A stretch of 46,974 nucleotides of DNA, from the IMG/VR virus record IMGVR_UViG_3300048586_000424, positions 1-46,974 of that record; one strand, 5' to 3'. This DNA is from a virus. Within the stretch, counting starts at the first letter, position 1. Each line of letters begins with the position of its first letter. Both the position numbers and the translations under genes were made by a program. A model generated the notes under the pieces. It made no database searches. It saw nothing but the letters and a program-made list of their open reading frames with translations, and had not been told where the DNA came from. This document shows positions 9,624 to 46,974 of the stretch, one piece after another.

Positions 9624-10121
9624 ATGATTATCATCGAGGGCGTTGATGCCACCGGCAAATCCACACTTGCCGAACACTTGGCAAGGTATAACGACCGAAA
9701 GACCGTCATCCAGGAAAGCGAAGGTCCCGCTCGTTCAATCGAGGAGATGACCGACCGCGTCGAGCGATACCGACTCCGGGAAGAGTGGGCTGAGCGCACT
9801 GGCCATGAAATCATCTTCGTCCGGCACCCGCTCATCAGTGAGCCGCTCTATGCCAACTTCGTGCATCGCCGTGAACCCCACGTGAAGCCCGAGGCCGTGT
9901 CCGCCCTGTATGACCGCCGGCCGCTCATCATCTACTGCGAGCCGCCGACCTTCCCCGTCCACCACGTGCTGAAGTCGACCGACACGCCCGAGTTCCTGGC
10001 GAAGCTCGAGGAGGGCAAGGCCCGACTGCTGCTCGGCTATCGGCAATGGGCCCTGTCCCGAGCTAATGTCATCTATCGCATCGGGGACGACATCCTGCAG
10101 ATTGCCCGCCTGTGCGTCTAG
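9624..10121 (+). CDS. Thymidylate-kinase-like dNMP kinase
   Basis: A 165-residue P-loop kinase. MIIIEGVDATGKSTLAEHLA (residues 1-20) is the Walker A loop in the form typical of thymidylate kinases (EGxDxxGKST). EIIFVRHPLISEPLYAN in the centre corresponds to the DR-type and lid neighbourhood, and IIYCEPP resembles the strand before the LID region. It is shorter than most bacterial Tmk (about 200-215). Its place ahead of MazG-like, three ThyA-like proteins and dCMP deaminase suggests phosphorylation of a modified dNMP, as T4 gp1 does. RBS AGAGGAG. Confidence 0.78.
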   Translation: MIIIEGVDATGKSTLAEHLARYNDRKTVIQESEGPARSIEEMTDRVERYRLREEWAERTGHEIIFVRHPLISEPLYANFVHRREPHVKPEAVSALYDRRPLIIYCEPPTFPVHHVLKSTDTPEFLAKLEEGKARLLLGYRQWALSRANVIYRIGDDILQIARLCV

Positions 10122-10585
10122 CCGACGGCATCTGTGAGCAGGCGCTCGAGGTCAGCGACAACTGCCTCGTCCCCTGGGTCCTCATGGGCGCATATGCCTA
10201 CTACATCTTGGACACCCCTATACTGTCGGACGCCTTCTACGACCGACTGTGCCGGGTGTTGTATCGCAAGTGGAAGAATATCCGCCACAGACACAAGTGG
10301 CTGATTGACCGCGGGGACTCGACCTGTCATGTGCTGCTTCAGGAAGAGGACTACCCCGAGATGGCCAAAGCAGCAGCAAGGCAGGTGCTCCATGTATCAA
10401 ATCTTCAAAGACGTCGCCGAGTTTCACGAAAGGTTCGGCCTCGAGTGGACAGGCCCGCTTCGGTTCCTGGACCCGGAGATGGCGAAGTTTCGGCACGGGT
10501 TCTCCGTCGAAGAGAGCGACGAATGGCTCGTAAAGAACGAGCTCGGACTGAAGCTCTCGCAGTCGGTGCCGGTCGCCAACGGTGA
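10112..10585 (+). CDS. LigA-Ia-like small protein, overlapping tail
   Basis: The first about 95 residues look real: AYAYYILDTPILSDAFYDRL then LYRKW and HKWLI. The YY--D-P--SD--YD pattern is that of the NAD-binding Ia domain of bacterial DNA ligase, found also as a stand-alone phage protein of unknown role. From 10392 on, the frame overlaps the next gene for 194 bases and turns into an Arg-rich low-complexity sequence, the look of an out-of-frame reading. Either the stop has been lost by an indel or the tail is a true overlap. GTG start, coupled to the kinase. Confidence 0.6.
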   Translation: MRLADGICEQALEVSDNCLVPWVLMGAYAYYILDTPILSDAFYDRLCRVLYRKWKNIRHRHKWLIDRGDSTCHVLLQEEDYPEMAKAAARQVLHVSNLQRRRRVSRKVRPRVDRPASVPGPGDGEVSARVLRRRERRMARKERARTEALAVGAGRQR

Positions 10586-10868
10586 CGACATGCTTGTCCG
10601 CGACGCTCTCGCCGAACAACTGGATGCCTTCGTCGACCAGCTCTACGTCATGGTCGGCACGATGTACCTCCAGGGCTTCACCGTCGAGCAATTCGAGAAA
10701 GCCTGGGAGCGAGTGCACAGCGCGAACATGACGAAGGTGAGGGCGGAGTCCGCAGCGGACAGCAAGCGGGGCTCGTCGTTCGATGTCGTCAAGCCCGCCG
10801 ACTGGGTGCCGCCCTGTCACCTCGACCTCATACCGGCCTACGTCGTGCCGTCGACCGATGAAGGCTGA
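10392..10868 (+). CDS. MazG-like nucleotide pyrophosphohydrolase
   Basis: A 158-residue all-alpha NTP pyrophosphatase of the MazG/HisE/dUTPase-like superfamily. FHERFGLEW near the start, the acidic ESDE box (about 44-48, FSVEESDEW), then LAEQLDAFVDQLYVMVGT and the phage-specific VHSANMTKV. These proteins convert (d)NTP to (d)NMP plus pyrophosphate. Between a dNMP kinase and ThyA-like genes it could play the part of T4 gp56 dCTPase, removing normal dCTP and supplying dCMP. Start at the ATG of MYQIFKD. Substrate not determinable here. Confidence 0.78.
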   Translation: MYQIFKDVAEFHERFGLEWTGPLRFLDPEMAKFRHGFSVEESDEWLVKNELGLKLSQSVPVANGDDMLVRDALAEQLDAFVDQLYVMVGTMYLQGFTVEQFEKAWERVHSANMTKVRAESAADSKRGSSFDVVKPADWVPPCHLDLIPAYVVPSTDEG

Positions 10869-11631
10869 CTGGCTCAGACATCTCAGGAAGCTGGAGGTCG
10901 GGAAGACTGACTCGACGGTCAGCGCCCGCAAGATTGTCCGGGGCGTCTCCCTGACCTTCAGCGCACCCTGTGACATCACGCTCGAGGACCTCGGTTACAC
11001 CAAGGCCAAGATGCGCAGCCTCTACAAGGGCTACATGGCCGAAGACAGCTATTCCGCTGCAATCGAGTTGTGGCGCAGTCGGCTGTCCCAGGGCAAGAAG
11101 CCGGGCAGTGTCGGGTTCCACTGCTACAATCACTTCGTGAAGGGGCACGCGACTTCGAGCCGCATTGCCAGTCACATCGGGCCCTGCTTGCAGGCGGTGA
11201 CCATCACACAGCTGGGCAAGGGTGCACTGGCCGTGGATGTGTTCTACCGCAGCACCGAGTTCTACATGAAGTTCCCGGCTGACCTCATATTCCTCGATGA
11301 AATCCTCCAGCCATTCGAGTTGCCAGAGGGCACAGAGGTGACCGCTCACTTTGCCAACCTGGCGCTCAATCCGATGTACTGGATTAAGATAGCGCCCCTT
11401 GTCGCTGACCCGGTTGGGCAGCTCGAGGCGATGCGCAAGGCGGACCCGAAGTACTGGCAACGGGTGCTGAAGTGGGTCTGGTACTACACCTCAGACCACG
11501 ACATCACGAAGAACTATGCACAGGCCGGCCGGGTCAAGGCGTTCACCGACAAGCGCCTGTCTGCTGACAAGGCTGCCGCGCTCGCGGCCTACGTCGACCT
11601 GCACTATCCTCGAGCAGGGGGGCAGGGTTGA
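10858..11631 (+). CDS. ThyA-superfamily paralogue A, dCMP-type
   Basis: A 257-residue protein of the thymidylate synthase fold. It has the active-site Pro-Cys (HIGPCLQAV, Cys110) and the phosphate-binding Arg-Ser (YRSTE, Arg131), 21 residues apart, close to the 20 in E. coli ThyA. Eleven residues after Arg131 is Asp142 (KFPADLIFL), the place of ThyA Asn177; Asp there selects dCMP in T4 dCMP hydroxymethylase. The next gene is a clear paralogue (both have SVGFHCYNH and GPCLQAVT), so this is a tandem duplication. Likely a pyrimidine nucleotide C5 methyl- or hydroxymethyltransferase. ATG at 10858 overlaps the MazG-like gene by 11 bases. Confidence 0.7.
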   Translation: MKADWLRHLRKLEVGKTDSTVSARKIVRGVSLTFSAPCDITLEDLGYTKAKMRSLYKGYMAEDSYSAAIELWRSRLSQGKKPGSVGFHCYNHFVKGHATSSRIASHIGPCLQAVTITQLGKGALAVDVFYRSTEFYMKFPADLIFLDEILQPFELPEGTEVTAHFANLALNPMYWIKIAPLVADPVGQLEAMRKADPKYWQRVLKWVWYYTSDHDITKNYAQAGRVKAFTDKRLSADKAAALAAYVDLHYPRAGGQG

Positions 11632-12389
11632 TGTTGAAGCAGTGGATAGCGCATTGCGCGCAGCTGTGCAAGCGAGAGCCAGACGGGGTGCTGAGCGGCT
11701 ACCAGAAGGTGTTCACCAACCTGGACATCGACTTCAAGCTCTATGCAGACTTCGACTACTCAGACGTCCACTACACCTCGGCCAAGGTCAAAGCGCTGTT
11801 CCGCAACTACTACGTTGAGGACAGCTTCCAGACGGCACTCGACCTGTGGCGCAAGCAGTCGCCCAAGGGCAAGTTCAGCAGCGTCGGCTTCCACTGCTAC
11901 AACCACCTGGTGAAGGCGCATGCCGGCACCTCGCCGCTCGCCAGCACCATCGGGCCCTGCCTGCAAGCGGTCACCCTCACCGCCGAGAGCAAGGGCAAGG
12001 CTCGAGTGGATGTGACCTTCAGAAGCACCGAGCTGTTCCGCAAGTTCCCCGCCGACCTGATATTCCTCAGCGGCCTCCTGCAGCAGTTCGACCTCGCCCC
12101 TGGGACGCCGATGCGTGTGCATGCTGCTAATGCGCATCTGCGGCCCATGTACTGGCTGCTCATCGCACACCACCACCCCGACCCGCTCGCCTGGATGCAG
12201 GACATGCGAAAGGGCGACCCGACCTGGTGGGCCGAAGTCATCAAGTGGAACCTGTTCCATCTCGACGACGAGGTGGCCAAGAACTACAAGCAATCCGCTC
12301 GCATCGGCAAGCGAGCAAGGTCCCGCCTCGACGCAACGACGCTGCGCCGACTGGAAGAGTATTGCCGAACGCATTCCCGCACCGTATAA
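11631..12389 (+). CDS. ThyA-superfamily paralogue B, dCMP-type
   Basis: A 252-residue paralogue of the preceding protein with the same landmark numbering: Cys110 (TIGPCLQAV), Arg131 (FRSTE) and Asp142 (KFPADLIFL). The N-terminal half matches over YVEDSFQTALDLWRK and SVGFHCYNHLVKAHA. The pair could form a heterodimer, or one copy could have a new substrate or be regulatory; ThyA enzymes are dimers in which each active site uses residues of both subunits. The ATG at 11631 overlaps the previous stop by one base (a TTG three bases upstream is the alternative). Confidence 0.7.
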   Translation: MLKQWIAHCAQLCKREPDGVLSGYQKVFTNLDIDFKLYADFDYSDVHYTSAKVKALFRNYYVEDSFQTALDLWRKQSPKGKFSSVGFHCYNHLVKAHAGTSPLASTIGPCLQAVTLTAESKGKARVDVTFRSTELFRKFPADLIFLSGLLQQFDLAPGTPMRVHAANAHLRPMYWLLIAHHHPDPLAWMQDMRKGDPTWWAEVIKWNLFHLDDEVAKNYKQSARIGKRARSRLDATTLRRLEEYCRTHSRTV

Positions 12390-12398
12390 GGAGTCCCC

Positions 12399-13235
12399 AT
12401 GCAGTTCTTTTCTAACTTCAGCAGCGCACGCGAGTCCCTCCGCAAGTCGATGCAGACCGCACAGATGGTCCACACAGGCACTTGGCAGGGAGTCGACATC
12501 AGTCATCGACCTGAAGCGAAGATGGCTGAAATCTGCTTCACTTCGTTCCAGGTGCCGATGACGCCGCTGCTCTTCGACAAGGAAGAGCTTGGCAAGCAGA
12601 CCGGTGCCAACCTGCCCTGGGCCGAGGACCACTTCCTCGAGCGGGTCTGTGGTGAGCCCATCAACCCAGGCATCCAGTGGGCCAAGTGGCCGTGGGGTCA
12701 CAGTGCCGACGGCTTCCGCGACGCCAACGGCCAGTTCAACCACAACTACATGGAGCGCTACTGGCCTCGGCAGGGCGGGATGTTTGAGATACCGACAGAC
12801 ACGCCCGAACAGTTCCAGGCCTCAGCCACTGAGGTCTGGGGCAACCGTCGCCCGGACAAGATGGGGCTTCGCTACCGCTACGGCGACCTCAACGACCTTG
12901 TGGACCTGTTCATCCGAGACCCGCTGACCCGGCAGGGCTACCTGCCAATCTTCTTCCCGGAGGACACCGGCGCACATCACGGCAGCCGCGTGCCCTGCAC
13001 CCTGGGCTACCACTTCATGCTGAGGCGCGACAAGCTGCACGTGACTTACTACATCCGAAGCTGCGACCTGTTCCGCCACTTCGATGACGACGTCTACCTG
13101 ACCGTCCGCCTGGTCTGGTGGCTGCTCGAACAACTGAGGGAAGCCGACCAGCGCTTCATGAAGGTTGTCCCGGGCTTGTTCATGATGCACATCGGGTCTT
13201 TGCATTGTTTCATCAACGACTTGAGGCAGCTGTGA
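12399..13235 (+). CDS. Third ThyA-superfamily protein, dCMP-type
   Basis: A 278-residue protein closer to classical ThyA: RVPCTLGYHF (Cys200), YYIRSCDLF (Arg220, exactly 20 residues later) and HIGSLHCFINDL near the C-terminus, at the place of the GD-H-Y box. At Arg+11 it has Asp231 (FDDDVYL) where ThyA has Asn177, again the dCMP-type choice. The residue after the catalytic Cys is Thr, not His. It probably acts on dCMP or a derivative, perhaps as a hydroxymethylase. Strong RBS (AAGGAG). The stop overlaps the deaminase GTG. Confidence 0.72.
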   Translation: MQFFSNFSSARESLRKSMQTAQMVHTGTWQGVDISHRPEAKMAEICFTSFQVPMTPLLFDKEELGKQTGANLPWAEDHFLERVCGEPINPGIQWAKWPWGHSADGFRDANGQFNHNYMERYWPRQGGMFEIPTDTPEQFQASATEVWGNRRPDKMGLRYRYGDLNDLVDLFIRDPLTRQGYLPIFFPEDTGAHHGSRVPCTLGYHFMLRRDKLHVTYYIRSCDLFRHFDDDVYLTVRLVWWLLEQLREADQRFMKVVPGLFMMHIGSLHCFINDLRQL

Positions 13236-13696
13236 GAATATCGCGCAACCAGATGTTCATGGAGATTGCACACGTCGCGGCCAAGCGCTCGACCTGTGCC
13301 CGCCTCAACGTAGGGGCCGTCATCGTCTACAAGGGCCGCATCGTCTCCATGGGGTGGAACGGTGCACCGTCCGGCGAGCCCCACTGCCACGAGCGACAGT
13401 GCCCACGCATCCCGGGCCTGTGCGTCACCGTGCATGCCGAAGCCAATGCAATCGAGTTTGCGAGGCGGCAACGGGTACCCCTGGGTGAGTGCACGCTCTA
13501 CGTCACTCACTCGCCCTGCCGCGACTGCTGCGAAGCTGTGCACCAGGCGGGGCTGAAAGCCGTTATGTTCGGGACCGCCTATCGAGACACGACGGCATTG
13601 ACATCGCTCATCTCGGCAGGTATCCAAGTATTCCAGGTGCTCCCCTGCGGATACGTCATCGACATCGAACGGGATGAACTGCTCAATGAAGGCTGA
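13232..13696 (+). CDS. dCMP deaminase-like zinc protein
   Basis: A 154-residue cytidine-deaminase-fold protein: VGAVIVYKGRIVSMGWNG, then the zinc and proton-shuttle motif VHAEANAI and the second zinc motif HSPCRDCC. ComE/dCMP-deaminase type, converting dCMP to dUMP, a substrate of normal ThyA. Its place next to dCMP-type ThyA proteins would let the phage balance dCMP between modification and dTMP synthesis. GTG start coupled to the preceding gene (GTGA). Confidence 0.85.
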   Translation: MRISRNQMFMEIAHVAAKRSTCARLNVGAVIVYKGRIVSMGWNGAPSGEPHCHERQCPRIPGLCVTVHAEANAIEFARRQRVPLGECTLYVTHSPCRDCCEAVHQAGLKAVMFGTAYRDTTALTSLISAGIQVFQVLPCGYVIDIERDELLNEG

Positions 13697-16106
13697 CCCA
13701 AACTGCCGACTCTGCAAACTGAGCGACAATGCAACCAAGGTTTGCGTGCTCGGCAGGGGCGAACGTGGTAGCGAAGTGATGGTGCTCACAGAGCAACCGG
13801 GTGACTACTCGCACCACCTACTCCAGCCTTTCCTCGACAGCACCGAAGCGTTCATCGCATCGGCCATCGCTTGCGAGGTGCCAGCGACGACCAAGCTGTC
13901 CAAGACTGCGGTCAAGGCCTGCAGCAAGTGGGTGAAGTATCAGGTCAACCGAGTGGCACCCCGATACGTCCTGCTCCTCGGCAATGTGCCGCTGCAGTCA
14001 GTCACTGGCGAAGTCGGTATCAGTCGCAAGCGGGGCAAGCCGTTTGAGCAGGACGGCATCATCTACCTGCCGACCTGGCACCCGAAGTACGTTGACTACG
14101 ACGAGCGACAGTTGCCCACCTTCCAGGCCGACCTCAACCTCTTTGCTGACATCATCGCGTTCGGCGGCATTCCCGAGGTCAAGGAACTCGACTTCCGCAT
14201 CGTCTACACCCAGGACGACTTCGATGCGTTGATTGACGACCTAGAGGGCGAGGTTGCTATCGACCTCGAGACCACCTGCCTCTACCCCTGGGACGGCGAC
14301 ATCATCAGCATTCAGTTCGGCACGGCTGAGCGGCAGTGGATTTTGCCCCTGCATGGCGCGGGGGTCATACCCATCAAGCGGCTCAACCGATGGCTCGACG
14401 TACTCGCCGACAAGCTGGCCGACACGTTCAACATCTTCCACAATGGCAAGTTCGACGCCCTCTGGCTTCGAGTCAAGTATGGGATGAAAGTTCGCATTGA
14501 CTTCGACACAATGCTTGCCGACTACATCCTCGACGAAAACAGGCGCCACGGCTTGAAGGAACTGGCCCAGCGGTTCTTCGCTGCACCTGACTGGGACGTC
14601 GACCTCAAGACCAAGACCACCTGGTCCGAACGCAACGCCAAGTATGCCGCCCACGACGTCTACTACACCCGGCGTCTCAAGGTCGAAATCTACGACCGCG
14701 ACCTGGCAAAGGACAAGCAGGTCGCCCTGGTGTTCCAACACGTGCTCATGCCCTGTGCCAACCTGTTCGTCGAAGTCGAATATGACGGCATCTACATCGA
14801 CATGGGCAAGATGCACGAAGCCGAGAAGTACCTACGGGAACAACTCGCCGAAGCCAAGACACAGCTCGATGCGATGGCGCCTGGCGTCAACTGGGGCTCA
14901 CCGGTGCAGGTGGCCAAGTTCTTCTTCGAAACGCTGGGGCTCGACCCGCTCGACAAGACGGGCACAGGCAAAGCCTCAACCTCCGAGTCTGTGCTGCTGC
15001 GCCTCGACCACCCTGCCGCTGCCCTCCTGCTCAAGTATCGCGCGGCCGACAAGCAGCTCGCCACGTTCATCGAGGGCTGGAAGCCGTTCATCGTTGACAG
15101 CTACATCCACCCGACGTTCAAGCTTCACGGCACCGTCACCGGTCGCCTGAGCTGTGAGCACCCCAACCTGCAACAGGTCCCGCGCGACAAGCGCATCCGC
15201 ACCCTCATCACGGCCCCCCCTGGGTGGACTTTGGTCGAAGTCGACCTCTCGCAAATCGAGTTGAGGGTTGCGGCTGAGATGTCGCGCGACCCGACACTCA
15301 TGGCGGCATACACCAACGGCGAGGACGTGCACTGGCTCACCGCCCTGCGTGAAATCGCCCGCGGTGGGGGCATGGCCGACCTGGTGACCAAGACGGCGAA
15401 GGCTCACACAGGCAAGAAGCACAGCTATGCCGAGGCAATCGACATTCTGCTGAAGATGGGGCCCGACACGGCGGCCGACCTCTTCGAGGAGTGGAAGGAG
15501 TTGAGGAAGAAGGCGAAGGCTACCAACTTCGGCTACCTGTTCGGCATGTGGTGGAAGAAGTTCAAGCTCTACGCTCGCGACAACTACGGCGTCCACCTGA
15601 CCGACCAACAGGCGAGGGAGTCTCGCATCGCGTTCTTCGACCTATACAGCGAGCTCGAGGACTGGCACAAGCGCCAGCGCAGGTTCGCTATGATGAACGG
15701 CTTTGTCCGCTCCCTGAGCGGTCGTAAACGCCGCCTACCGGCAGCCCTGAGCAGCAGGGACACCCCCGAGCGCGCGGAAGCACTGCGCCAGGCAATCAAC
15801 AGCCCTGTCCAGTCGTTCGCCAACGAGATAAACCTCATGGGGGCCATTCAGCTTCGGCAAGAGTATGGCCGCAACATCGTCCGACTGTGCGGCACCGTCC
15901 ACGACGCCTGCCTGCTCAGGGTTCGTGACCCTTGGGTCGAAGAGGTCACCCTTCGTCTCCAGGAAATACTCCGTAAGCCGAAGCTGTTTGAGCCGCTCGG
16001 CATCGAACTGTCAGTTCCAATCGAAGCAGACGCAAAGGTAGGGCCATGGGGCGCAGGAATAAGTCTGGACAAGTGGGTAAAGTCAAAGTCTCACAGTCCC
16101 GAGTGA
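13686..16106 (+). CDS. UDG-like domain fused to family A DNA polymerase
   Basis: An 806-residue replicative polymerase. Residues about 1-160 look like a uracil-DNA-glycosylase superfamily domain (CRLCKLS, VMVLTEQPGDYSHH, VLLLGN, TWHPKYVD), as in the SPO1-type fusions. A 3'-5' exonuclease follows (IDLETT near 192, HNGKFDAL, YAAHDVYYTRR). The polymerase has motif A VEVDLSQIELR (about 520), motif B KKAKATNFGYLFGM (about 606-620) and motif C GTVHDAC (about 738). Motif C has HDA where HDE is usual; the catalytic Asp is kept. About 40 extra residues lie between motifs A and B compared with E. coli Pol I. Start could also be 13674; overlaps the deaminase by 11 bases. Confidence 0.88.
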   Translation: MKADPNCRLCKLSDNATKVCVLGRGERGSEVMVLTEQPGDYSHHLLQPFLDSTEAFIASAIACEVPATTKLSKTAVKACSKWVKYQVNRVAPRYVLLLGNVPLQSVTGEVGISRKRGKPFEQDGIIYLPTWHPKYVDYDERQLPTFQADLNLFADIIAFGGIPEVKELDFRIVYTQDDFDALIDDLEGEVAIDLETTCLYPWDGDIISIQFGTAERQWILPLHGAGVIPIKRLNRWLDVLADKLADTFNIFHNGKFDALWLRVKYGMKVRIDFDTMLADYILDENRRHGLKELAQRFFAAPDWDVDLKTKTTWSERNAKYAAHDVYYTRRLKVEIYDRDLAKDKQVALVFQHVLMPCANLFVEVEYDGIYIDMGKMHEAEKYLREQLAEAKTQLDAMAPGVNWGSPVQVAKFFFETLGLDPLDKTGTGKASTSESVLLRLDHPAAALLLKYRAADKQLATFIEGWKPFIVDSYIHPTFKLHGTVTGRLSCEHPNLQQVPRDKRIRTLITAPPGWTLVEVDLSQIELRVAAEMSRDPTLMAAYTNGEDVHWLTALREIARGGGMADLVTKTAKAHTGKKHSYAEAIDILLKMGPDTAADLFEEWKELRKKAKATNFGYLFGMWWKKFKLYARDNYGVHLTDQQARESRIAFFDLYSELEDWHKRQRRFAMMNGFVRSLSGRKRRLPAALSSRDTPERAEALRQAINSPVQSFANEINLMGAIQLRQEYGRNIVRLCGTVHDACLLRVRDPWVEEVTLRLQEILRKPKLFEPLGIELSVPIEADAKVGPWGAGISLDKWVKSKSHSPE

Positions 16107-39106: not shown

Positions 39107-40518
39107 TGCCGATAGAGCTCGAAGCGGAAAGCCTTGAGCACCTGACTCATGGCGTCCCGTTCTTCGGTTTCATTGCTGTCGTCGTCTTCCTCATTCTGCT
39201 CTTCTTCTTCGACCTCGTCGTCTTCCTCTTCGGGCTCTTCCTCTTCAGGCAGGGGCGCGGGAGGCGGCGGCAGCGTCTGGTTCTTGAGGGCAGACAGCGG
39301 GTAGTACTGCTGCTGCACATAGATTTCATCGCCACCGTCGGTCGGCTCGAGGCCGAGACGGGTGCGAGCCTCGTTGGTCTTCATCAGCTGCCCCTTCACT
39401 GCGCTGGTGAGCGCATCGACGTGGGTCTTGAAGTCCATGCGAATGAGGTCAGACAAGTCGAACTCGACGCCTCGCGTAACGCCGTCCAGGCCGAGCCCCT
39501 CGTCGAGCAGCCTTTCGACATCCTCGATAAGGGTCTGCAGGCAGTCGCTGTAGTAGATTTGGTTGAGCACTGCCGCGTTCTGATAGTTCGGCATCACGCC
39601 CTGGCCAATCTTGTAAGGCGGGACGTGGAACGCGGAGCAGATGTCGATAGCCGTCCACTTCAGCTGCTCGATGAGTTGGGCGTCCACAGGGTTGACAGAC
39701 ATGGAGGCATACTCGAGTCCGTCGCCGAGGACAGCCACCCGGCCTTGGTTGTCGCCGCCGTAGTTCTTCTCCCATTCCTCCTTGAGCCGCGCAGCCGTCT
39801 CGTCAGAGATAAGCCCAGGGGCGGTCAGGATACCGCCAGGCCGCGAGCCATTGCGGAAGAACTGGGTGCTGCTCTTCTGAATGGCCAGGCCCTGAAGCGC
39901 GGCAAGACCGCAAGCAGTGATGGGCGAGACACCGACGAGCGGGTGATAGAGGGGCACCATCACGTCGTGGATGATTTCGCTCGAGGGCACATAGACGACT
40001 TCCTGCGTCAGCCCGCTGAGGTTGTCTCGCTGAAGGCCGTAGAACACAGTGCCGTCTGGGCTGACGTATGTCTTGACACGAAGCGGGTCGAGCGGGTAGA
40101 GGCCGACCACCACGTTGCGCTGGTCGCGCTCTTTCAGGATATACGAGTTGCCGTGGATGAGCTTCAGCACAATCCAGTGCTCGATGAACTTCTTGAAGTT
40201 CTGGTACCGGTTCGGCTTGCGAAGCACCGGGGAGTAAGCCGCGCTGTCACGGGACGGCACCCACACCTGCTCCTTCTTCTCGACCAGGCGAATGGCCATC
40301 TTCGAGATGTCCGACGCAATCAGAGTCACGCAGGAATAGAGCGGGGCGTAGGTCAGGCCGCTGGCAACGTCGATTTCGATGTTCTGCTGCCAGGCGCCGG
40401 AGTAGCTCTCCATGATACGGCGCAAGCCACCTCCCGTCTGAGCGACCTCGCCGGTTACCCGGGCGGTGGAGATGTTCTTTCGGAAGAGGGTCGGCAGTTT
40501 CAAGGCGAGTCTCCTCAA
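39103..40518 (-). CDS. HK97-family portal protein
   Basis: A 471-residue portal: SGLTYAPLYSCVTLIASDIS, KFIEHWIVLKLIHGNSYI, SGLTQEVVYVPSSEIIHDVM and LLDEGLGLDGVTRGVEFDLS. About 50 residues at the C-terminal side are a low-complexity Pro then Glu/Asp run (LPPPPAPLPEEEEPEEEDDE), which is longer than usual and may face the capsid lumen or dock terminase. Length fits the family. Overlaps its neighbours by four bases. Confidence 0.9.
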   Translation of the reverse strand: MRRLALKLPTLFRKNISTARVTGEVAQTGGGLRRIMESYSGAWQQNIEIDVASGLTYAPLYSCVTLIASDISKMAIRLVEKKEQVWVPSRDSAAYSPVLRKPNRYQNFKKFIEHWIVLKLIHGNSYILKERDQRNVVVGLYPLDPLRVKTYVSPDGTVFYGLQRDNLSGLTQEVVYVPSSEIIHDVMVPLYHPLVGVSPITACGLAALQGLAIQKSSTQFFRNGSRPGGILTAPGLISDETAARLKEEWEKNYGGDNQGRVAVLGDGLEYASMSVNPVDAQLIEQLKWTAIDICSAFHVPPYKIGQGVMPNYQNAAVLNQIYYSDCLQTLIEDVERLLDEGLGLDGVTRGVEFDLSDLIRMDFKTHVDALTSAVKGQLMKTNEARTRLGLEPTDGGDEIYVQQQYYPLSALKNQTLPPPPAPLPEEEEPEEEDDEVEEEEQNEEDDDSNETEERDAMSQVLKAFRFELYRQ

Positions 40519-41456
40519 GCCGCGGCTTGGTCGAGTTGGAAGCGGTCAGGGCCACACACTTCCAGGCTGTCAAAGCCGTGCATGATTGCAAGTCGGCGGG
40601 CTTGGCTTTCGGTTGGCACAATGGCGAGCGGCTTGCGGGGCCAGTGCTTAGCAGCTTCGGGCGAAGCGATGATGCCATGCACAGGGCCGCGGTGGAAGGC
40701 GTCGTCGACATCGGACCACAGGTTCTGGCCAGTGCCGAGGTATAGGGCTCGACCTCCTCGGCCAGACAGTCGGTAGTTCTCGACCGCCCAGGGGTTGCCC
40801 TCTGCGACCAGGTCCCACGGCTTGGGGTTGCCGAAGAAGAAGGTCAGCAGCGGAGGCTTGGGCGAGCGGTATGCGCTGCGATACCCGACCACCCCGTCTG
40901 CTTCGCTCCAAGTCTTTTCGCCGAACCCGAGCACCTGGCTTATCCAGGCTTGGTCGCTACCCAGGAAACGGCGCCCTGCCATGATGGCCTTGTGCGGCGT
41001 GAACTCAGTGAACACCTGAGGACGAGCACCCGCAGTCATCATGACCATTGAGCCGTTGTAAGGGCGACTGCGGTGAGTGCCCCGATACATCATGAAGTCG
41101 TGCGGCCGATTGAAGAGGGTATCCAGTTCACCCTCGATGATGCAGTCCATGTCCATGGACACAAAGCGAGGGCCGAAGATATCAGCAGCATCGGGTCGAA
41201 AAAGGGACAGGCGGCGAAAGCACTGGGGCTTGTCCGCCTGCCAAGTGGGGATGACCGTGTCGCGATAGTCATCCGGTGGAGTTACCACTTCAATGTTACC
41301 GTCCAGGCCTTCCGGCATGTCGGTCACACAGGCCAGAGTGTGAGGCATGCGAAGATGCCGGTCTACCATCTCGGCCCAGATGTTCACGTGGTGAGCAGTG
41401 TAAGTTGCCCGCCCGCCTGGCTGTGCCCACAGCCAAGTCATCACCTTCAACATCAA
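40515..41456 (-). CDS. Glycosyltransferase-like protein 2
   Basis: A 313-residue paralogue of the 37000 protein with the same blocks: YTAHHVNIWAEMV, HTLACVTDMPEGL, CFRRLSLFRPDAADIFG, FVSMDMDCIIEGEL (DMD as DxD motif), NGSMVMMTAGARPQVFTEF and RFLGSDQAWISQVLG. It has about 60 extra C-terminal residues (EAAKHWPRKPLAIVPTESQA). Two GT-A-like copies in one head module suggest two sugar steps or two acceptors. ATG follows the 41453 gene with a four-base overlap. Confidence 0.75.
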   Translation of the reverse strand: MMLKVMTWLWAQPGGRATYTAHHVNIWAEMVDRHLRMPHTLACVTDMPEGLDGNIEVVTPPDDYRDTVIPTWQADKPQCFRRLSLFRPDAADIFGPRFVSMDMDCIIEGELDTLFNRPHDFMMYRGTHRSRPYNGSMVMMTAGARPQVFTEFTPHKAIMAGRRFLGSDQAWISQVLGFGEKTWSEADGVVGYRSAYRSPKPPLLTFFFGNPKPWDLVAEGNPWAVENYRLSGRGGRALYLGTGQNLWSDVDDAFHRGPVHGIIASPEAAKHWPRKPLAIVPTESQARRLAIMHGFDSLEVCGPDRFQLDQAAA

Positions 41457-46294: not shown

Positions 46295-46974
46295 TCATTT
46301 TTTAGCTCCACCCCGCTGGGGTCCAGACAGAGAGTTGGAGTATTTCTCCCCTCCCCCCCTGGTATCGGATGAGCCCCCAGAGTCCTCTGGCCACCCATCC
46401 AGACCTATGCGCTTCCTACCAGCACCACGTAGTTCTTCACCCCACCATTGGTTGGGAGAGTACCATCGTTTGATTGCGGAGACGAGCTCCGGAGTTCCCC
46501 TGTCGATTGCACGTTGGATGCAAACGCTTTCCCCTGGGTTGAGGAGATGCACTGTTCCGTTCAGCTTCCCTGCCCACCAATCGCGCTCAGCCTTTGTCGG
46601 TGCCGACACGATGAAGAACGCAGCGCCAGACTTACGCAGGTGCAGAGTGCCGAGCAGCGTGTTCCGCTTCCGGAGCACGTCGCTCAAGTCCTTCTTCTGC
46701 ACCCTCCTGCCTGCTATCGCATCGAGGTCGATGACAACATCAGCAGGTCGCGCCCTCTCAGTCACCCATGTGGTCTTGCCCGAGGCAGGTGCACCACAGA
46801 CAATAGTGAGGGGCACAGCACTGGGCTTCAACCAGACAGGGTGAGTGTAACTAATGAAGCGCTCGGCATTCTCCCTGTCGGTCTTATCATCGTGGCAGGG
46901 GTTGCACAGTGACTGTGTGTTGTCGTCGATATCCAGGCCACCCTGATGCAACGGCACGATGTGGTCAACCTGGT
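46295..46974 (-). CDS. HNH endonuclease-P-loop fusion, C-terminal part
   Basis: Continuation of the gene at 1-322. In the joined circle the protein has 271 residues and ends at 46295. This part carries the end of the HNH domain (LCNPCHDDKT), the Walker A GAPASGKTT, VVIDLDAIAGRR, HLRKSGAAFFIVSAPT (Walker-B-like strand) and WWAGKLNGTVHLL with a hydrophilic C-terminus (GGSSDTRGGGEKYSNSLSGP). The second domain resembles zeta-toxin or polynucleotide-kinase-type P-loop proteins (GxPxSGKTT, then V--D-D). It immediately precedes the terminase genes. Confidence 0.88.
   Translation of the reverse strand, partial: QVDHIVPLHQGGLDIDDNTQSLCNPCHDDKTDRENAERFISYTHPVWLKPSAVPLTIVCGAPASGKTTWVTERARPADVVIDLDAIAGRRVQKKDLSDVLRKRNTLLGTLHLRKSGAAFFIVSAPTKAERDWWAGKLNGTVHLLNPGESVCIQRAIDRGTPELVSAIKRWYSPNQWWGEELRGAGRKRIGLDGWPEDSGGSSDTRGGGEKYSNSLSGPQRGGAKK
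46789..46974. repeat. Terminal redundancy, right copy
   Basis: Repeat of bases 1-186 with one mismatch at 46916. See the left copy. Removing either copy leaves a 46,788-base circle. Confidence 0.95.

Follow-up and report, generated by a model that had tools for sequence, protein, structure and literature searches.

We analysed a viral sequence of 46,974 bases, IMG/VR record IMGVR_UViG_3300048586_000424 (hereafter the window), which contains three consecutive genes, A, B and C, whose products resemble thymidylate synthase (ThyA). Sequence comparisons and structural models suggest that A and B represent a separate ThyA-fold family in which the active-site half that activates the pyrimidine (Tyr, Cys, Arg and Asp) is kept and the folate/3′-OH half is not recognisable, and that C is a probable deoxycytidine monophosphate (dCMP) 5-hydroxymethylase in a T4-like pathway. 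What appears to be new is the A/B family; C belongs to an already known kind of enzyme. A first-pass annotation made from the sequence alone had described three consecutive ThyA-like genes, and recomputing the positions bore this out: the landmark residues are Cys110, Arg131 and Asp142 in both A and B and Cys200, Arg220 and Asp231 in C, with the Asp 11 residues after the Arg in each. The three open reading frames (ORFs) overlap or are separated by a few bases. They and their key codons, aligned with Escherichia coli ThyA (EcThyA) where stated, are located as follows:

10858..11631, + strand: protein A, ThyA-fold family, 257 aa, with Tyr59, Cys110, Arg131 and Asp142
11032..11034, + strand: A Tyr59 codon, aligned with EcThyA Tyr94
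11185..11187, + strand: A Cys110 codon, aligned with the EcThyA nucleophile Cys146
11248..11250, + strand: A Arg131 codon, aligned with EcThyA Arg166
11281..11283, + strand: A Asp142 codon, aligned with EcThyA Asn177
11631..12389, + strand: protein B, paralogue of A, 252 aa, with Cys110, Arg131 and Asp142 intact
12399..13235, + strand: protein C, dCMP-type ThyA-superfamily enzyme and probable dCMP 5-hydroxymethylase, 278 aa (phrog_160, MilA, model)
12747..12749, + strand: C Tyr117 codon, aligned with EcThyA Tyr94 and SPO1 YGERL (register taken from the SPO1 and EcThyA alignments)
12996..12998, + strand: C Cys200 codon, nucleophile, placed by alignment
13056..13058, + strand: C Arg220 codon, RS motif, placed by alignment
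13089..13091, + strand: C Asp231 codon, at the position of EcThyA Asn177 and T4 gp42 Asp179
13203..13205, + strand: C His269 codon, at the position of EcThyA His207

Neither A nor B matched any Pfam family or came near the cut-off of any NCBIfam family, and the sole phrog match of A was phrog_34294, annotated as of unknown function. In 57 A-family proteins, whose identity to A is 13–45%, every alignment column varied except Tyr59, Cys110, Arg131 and Asp142, and these four were also the sole residues that never varied in an A alignment of 71 rows. When the A profile was compared with a ThyA-superfamily profile (hhalign), the alignment scored 37.4, whereas none of 40 column-shuffled controls scored above 21.0. 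In that alignment the invariant residues of A land on Tyr94, Cys146, Arg166 and Asn177 of EcThyA, with an Asp in A at the Asn177 position. Given their invariance across families, the Cys/Arg/Asp pattern is beyond chance. Structure prediction, which had been proposed as a check, was run for A and C, and both models match ThyA-superfamily structures. For the AlphaFold (AF2) model of A (pLDDT 91.6), the best Foldseek match in the Protein Data Bank (PDB) was 9iqu, a dCMP hydroxylase (E 8.5e-6, prob 1.00), and the remaining PDB matches were all ThyA-family among the matches listed. Compared with viral models, A matched an uncharacterised PMBT14 relative first, then two more uncharacterised proteins, and then ThyA and dCMP-hydroxymethylase proteins. 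A predicted ThyA fold for B follows from its 43% sequence identity to the modelled A. The two proteins are sisters in the tree (support 100/98), so the window's three genes amount to one C plus a duplicated A; as read from the sequences, this is a local, lineage-specific duplication in which the B residues are intact.

Outside these four positions, A retains little that is recognisable of ThyA. A Glu occupies the pterin position in 67 of the 71 rows, and no conserved equivalents of Glu58, the Arg126/127 pair or His207/Tyr209 could be recognised in the A alignment, although a structural equivalent elsewhere is possible. The N-terminal part of A is short and its last 80 residues are helical. We rejected the interpretation of A as a degenerate pseudo-enzyme because its catalytic residues are the sole invariant ones. 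Several searches with A were negative: its profile had no match among PDB sequences, a scan of a 10-row A alignment for degenerate patterns gave no conserved stretch, and a scan with A alone as the query confirmed no relative, whereas queries B and C did find relatives. The profile comparison of A with C was not significant, yet it aligned the motif. Relatives of A are annotated as "hypothetical protein" or, automatically and in two records, as "pyrimidine hmase synthase", and we found no published characterisation of the family in a literature search that did not include the main 2025 paper on 5-hydroxycytosine biosynthesis.

The identity of C is clearer. C matched PF00303 weakly (E 0.005), phrog_160 (thymidylate synthase) at E 6.5e-25 and a ThyA reference profile at E 2.5e-18. 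Its AF2 model (pLDDT 92.2, pTM 0.91) had 396 matches in the PDB at E<=1e-3, of which the cytidine monophosphate (CMP) hydroxymethylase MilA was best (E 2.8e-13); dCMP hydroxylase 9iqu/9iqc and ThyA were further top matches, and T4 dCMP hydroxymethylase was also matched. The C profile likewise reached MilA, 9iqu/9iqc, N229D Lactobacillus casei ThyA and T4 gp42 among PDB sequences. In the alignment, Tyr117, Cys200, Arg220, Ser221, Asp223, Asp231 and His269 were each kept in 83–85 of 85 C relatives, and Cys200, Arg220 and Asp231 were invariant among 64 C-family proteins. Asp231 occupies the EcThyA Asn177 position in 84/85 rows; an Asp at this position is a cytosine determinant (PMC6400193, PMC5175136), is found in T4 gp42 (Asp179), and is replaced by Asn in SPO1 gp29 and the ViI-type enzyme. 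The pterin position likewise holds Asp (RSCD) in 84/85 rows, with Glu in one. C ends 9 residues past His269 and has no C-terminal closing tail. In the MilA study, a preference for deoxynucleotides goes with a Ser/Arg pair, and C has Ser221 and Arg178 (PMC5175136). Because of its fold, residue set, TRQ motif and tail-less end, we read C as a probable dCMP 5-hydroxymethylase. Its relatives are nearly confined to viral contigs: 84,980 species genomes gave 6 matches, all in contigs of metagenome-assembled genomes.

Among known systems, T4 gp42, which works with gp56, gp1 and cd, shares with C the ThyA fold, the Cys/Arg/Asp179 set, the absence of a tail, and pyrophosphohydrolase, kinase and dCMP deaminase neighbours. 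By contrast, C is only ~14% identical to gp42 over the fold, has TRQ rather than RR and carries a long insert (~124–154), and T4 has no A/B-like gene beside gp42 and uses glucosyltransferases, which were not seen here. MilA (PDB 5jnh, 5b6d) is the best solved match of C by both profile and structure and has the cytosine Asp in common with it, but has Ala176/Lys133 in place of the deoxy-preferring Ser221/Arg178 of C. The deoxyuridine monophosphate (dUMP) hydroxymethylases SPO1 gp29 and ViI-type align with C in general and have its TRQ motif; however, after a one-residue insertion they have Asn where C has Asp231, and so would take uracil, not cytosine. Thymidylate synthase proper has Asn177 and a C-terminal closing tail, and C has neither. 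A parallel in gene content is the modified-cytosine group of MetaGPA (eLife 2021), in which, according to part of that report, contigs with modified cytosine are enriched for Asp177 ThyA homologues as well as for PF01503 and dCMP deaminase domains, a combination also present here (PMC8670742). The same part of the report describes carbamoyltransferases, which are absent here, and no second ThyA family of A type.

The three genes lie within a nucleotide cassette at 9624–13696, in the order P-loop kinase, LigA N-terminal-like ORF, MazG/PRA-PH, A, B, C and dCMP deaminase; next comes DNA polymerase A (PolA) with a uracil-DNA-glycosylase (UDG) domain:

9624..10121, + strand: P-loop deoxynucleoside monophosphate (thymidylate-like) kinase, candidate for modified dCMP (phrog_761, E 2.5e-8)
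10112-10585: ORF resembling the LigA N-terminal NAD-binding domain only (PF22745, E 2e-8), overlapping the MazG gene
10392..10868, + strand: MazG/PRA-PH-type nucleoside triphosphate pyrophosphohydrolase, candidate dCTPase/dUTPase (PF01503 above cut-off; phrog_671, E 1.4e-21)
13232..13696, + strand: dCMP deaminase (PF00383, E 1.5e-24; phrog_174, E 1.3e-52)
13674..16106, + strand: DNA polymerase A with an N-terminal UDG domain (PF00476, PF01612; PF03167, E 6.9e-10)

Family matches thus confirm the MazG-like (PF01503), kinase-like (phrog_761) and dCMP deaminase (PF00383) neighbours named in the first-pass annotation. Of the T4-parallel route proposed there, one part held, namely that ThyA enzymes of dCMP type sit in a nucleotide cassette like that of T4, but C is the only one of the three that is recognisable as hydroxymethylase-type. 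No second ThyA and no ThyX is encoded in the genome beyond the cassette. The genome is probably complete at about 46.8 kb, since a direct repeat of 186 bp, with one mismatch, is found at its two ends (1–186 and 46789–46974); the record itself is not flagged complete.

The same cassette is found again in phages of both Proteobacteria and Actinobacteria. Across 68 loci for which 3 kb or more was available on both sides, we counted A in 60, the kinase in 61, the MazG-type gene in 60, the deaminase in 63, PolA in 60, ThyX in 5 and canonical ThyA in 0; C occurred without A in 8. Relatives of A found by tblastn came from 18 phage records, with a C homologue close by in 18/18, and in Gordonia and Streptomyces phages, too, a divergent relative occupies the place upstream of C. 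Five A-bearing cassettes also have a separate ThyX, suggesting that A and C are not the source of deoxythymidine monophosphate (dTMP). Three of the loci that lack A have, directly upstream of C, an ORF resembling a DNA methyltransferase in sequence (L069:4111-4992, L070:3893-5011, L072:4093-5001).

On balance, we favour a reading in which the operon serves to produce a deoxycytidine nucleotide modified at C5, ahead of DNA synthesis and by the logic of T4, with A and B as accessory or second-step enzymes. The MazG-type enzyme would destroy deoxycytidine triphosphate (dCTP). Within the modelled fold and conserved residue set of C, Cys200 would attack C6 of dCMP while Asp231 protonates the ring nitrogen, and methylene-tetrahydrofolate would give the carbon, yielding 5-hydroxymethyl-dCMP. 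The kinase would then charge the modified nucleotide for incorporation by the UDG-linked PolA, and the dCMP deaminase would feed dUMP/dTMP synthesis. In the weakest step of the scheme, A and B would most likely share this cytosine nucleotide as a substrate, in an accessory or second-step C5 role rather than as obligate partners of C. Successive steps, as suggested in the first-pass annotation, are possible.

Several observations weigh against this reading. The TM-scores of A to ThyA are modest, at 0.37–0.47. No position in C could be assigned to the folate-activating Glu58 (T4 Glu60): in the corresponding helix, His78 and Glu81 are invariant and lie one turn off, in an uncertain register. A family search of the genome found no downstream glycosyl- or carbamoyltransferase. 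Partial correlation of distance matrices, corrected for the other genes, was 0.03 for A–C and highest, at 0.63, for A–PolA, so A may belong functionally with replication, although pairwise distances are not independent and the covariation is only a hint. We found no nucleoside data for the source phage or its close relatives; a literature search for modified DNA in phage Muddy gave nothing, and there were no DNA-modification data in the Serbin paper or, by term search, in the paper on Yersinia enterocolitica P744.

Glycosylation of the cytosine, which had also been suggested, is unsupported, because the genome has no match to PF00535 or PF02543 and its glycosyltransferase-like gene is in a head/portal cluster. 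Two such genes had been noted; one weak candidate was found, at 40515-41456 (- strand; phrog_1962, E 2e-5, with a DxD-like DMDC motif), and the second was not. The candidate sits in a virion-structure cluster between portal and head genes, with no link to the cassette, and in EBPR siphovirus 3 and Tetraselmis virus S20 its relatives are near a head-closure gene. Its product is probably not DNA-directed, judging from sequence and context; other glycosyltransferase folds were not covered exhaustively.

A more specific role for A and B, which we regard as unlikely, would involve no folate: their Cys–C6 adduct and Asp would re-activate 5-hydroxymethyl-dCMP, with loss of water giving an exocyclic methylene, and attach another nucleophile at the mononucleotide stage, producing a new hypermodification. 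Family D might share this role. D is a further A-like group of ~185 aa that keeps the Cys and the RS-Asp(+11), and it is encoded downstream of C at five further loci (L075:6017-6586, L093:5806-6498, L052:7198-7740, L071:5771-6319 and L085:5747-6310). In the last of these, from PMBT14, we considered a D–deaminase fusion and rejected it, since the annotated dCMP deaminase coding sequence is in a different frame from the D ORF.

A flavin-dependent 5-hydroxy-dCMP synthase of the RB69 type, placing OH directly on C5, would be a different identity for C and perhaps A. Such enzymes (RB69 ORF048c; HY126 AfhB, PDB 9iqu) belong to the ThyA superfamily, according to an excerpt of PMC13390438, and have the ThyA fold and cytosine Asp; they also retain a Glu-x-x-Trp helix that is missing in A. 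The HY126 dCMP hydroxylase structures 9iqu/9iqc rank among the best matches to the model of C, 9iqu is the single best PDB match of A, and C has an HxF motif in common with ORF048c. However, at pterin-binding Asp169 ORF048c has Asn (RSQN), where C keeps Asp and A keeps Glu. Asp rather than Asn at this position favours a folate enzyme for C, although the RSQN Asn is one residue in one reference enzyme and not a proven diagnostic. MilA also outscores 9iqu for C, and we recognised neither a flavin reductase gene nor arabinose genes in the vicinity. Together these points make the hydroxylase assignment distinctly improbable.

We are similarly sceptical that C is a dCMP methylase, giving phage DNA with 5-methylcytosine. 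An Asn-to-Asp ThyA methylates dCMP, as quoted in part of PMC8670742, and phage Xp12 has a natural dCMP methylase (PMC5175136); by contrast, C lacks the C-terminal tail that is present in ThyA and absent from T4 gp42, has the hydroxymethylase TRQ signature, and resides in a genome with a CpG ratio of 1.01, which shows no depletion (a weak test). There is also little to recommend an obligate form of the hetero-oligomer raised in the first-pass annotation, in which A (or B) and C would complete each other's active sites like two ThyA protomers. The phosphate arginines of ThyA-type sites do come from the partner protomer (PMC6400193, PMC5175136), A has no Arg pair and C has Arg-Gln, and the genes are tightly adjacent. 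However, the 8/68 loci with C and no A and the A–C partial correlation of 0.03 both speak against it, and Arg-Gln is also present in the SPO1 and ViI-type enzymes, beside which no A-like gene is annotated. Ordinary dTMP synthesis, with C a divergent thymidylate synthase and A and B relics, is very unlikely: the dCMP deaminase, dUTPase-like and thymidylate-kinase-like neighbours, the GenBank label of C (thymidylate synthase) and the lack of any further ThyA or ThyX in the genome fit it, but Asp is at the uracil/cytosine position in 84/85 C rows and all A rows, some cassettes have a separate ThyX, C has no C-terminal tail, and the invariant catalytic residues of A speak against relics.

The favoured reading, synthesis of a C5-modified deoxycytidine nucleotide, would reach beyond this genome. 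Beside a dCMP-type ThyA in phages of Proteobacteria and Actinobacteria, the A family keeps just the four pyrimidine-activating residues and little else. If A acts on cytosine nucleotides, modified cytosine is to be expected in many cultured phages, such as Serratia phage Serbin, Pseudomonas phage PMBT14 and Gordonia phages, and this, if true, would bear on the restriction and sequencing of their DNA; in Mycobacterium phage Muddy, at least the C gene is present.

Two further ThyA-like variants were seen in other loci. At L095:4779-5495, a degenerate second copy of C, with Cys changed to Thr and Asp to Asn, adjoins an intact one. In Pamexvirus phiH2 (L102:1117-1980) and Bosavirus DoCa6 (L105:4647-5597), ThyA homologues with Asp at the Asn177 position (RSSDxFVGLPYD) adjoin a HAD hydrolase and a dCMP deaminase, making these phages candidates for dCMP modification.

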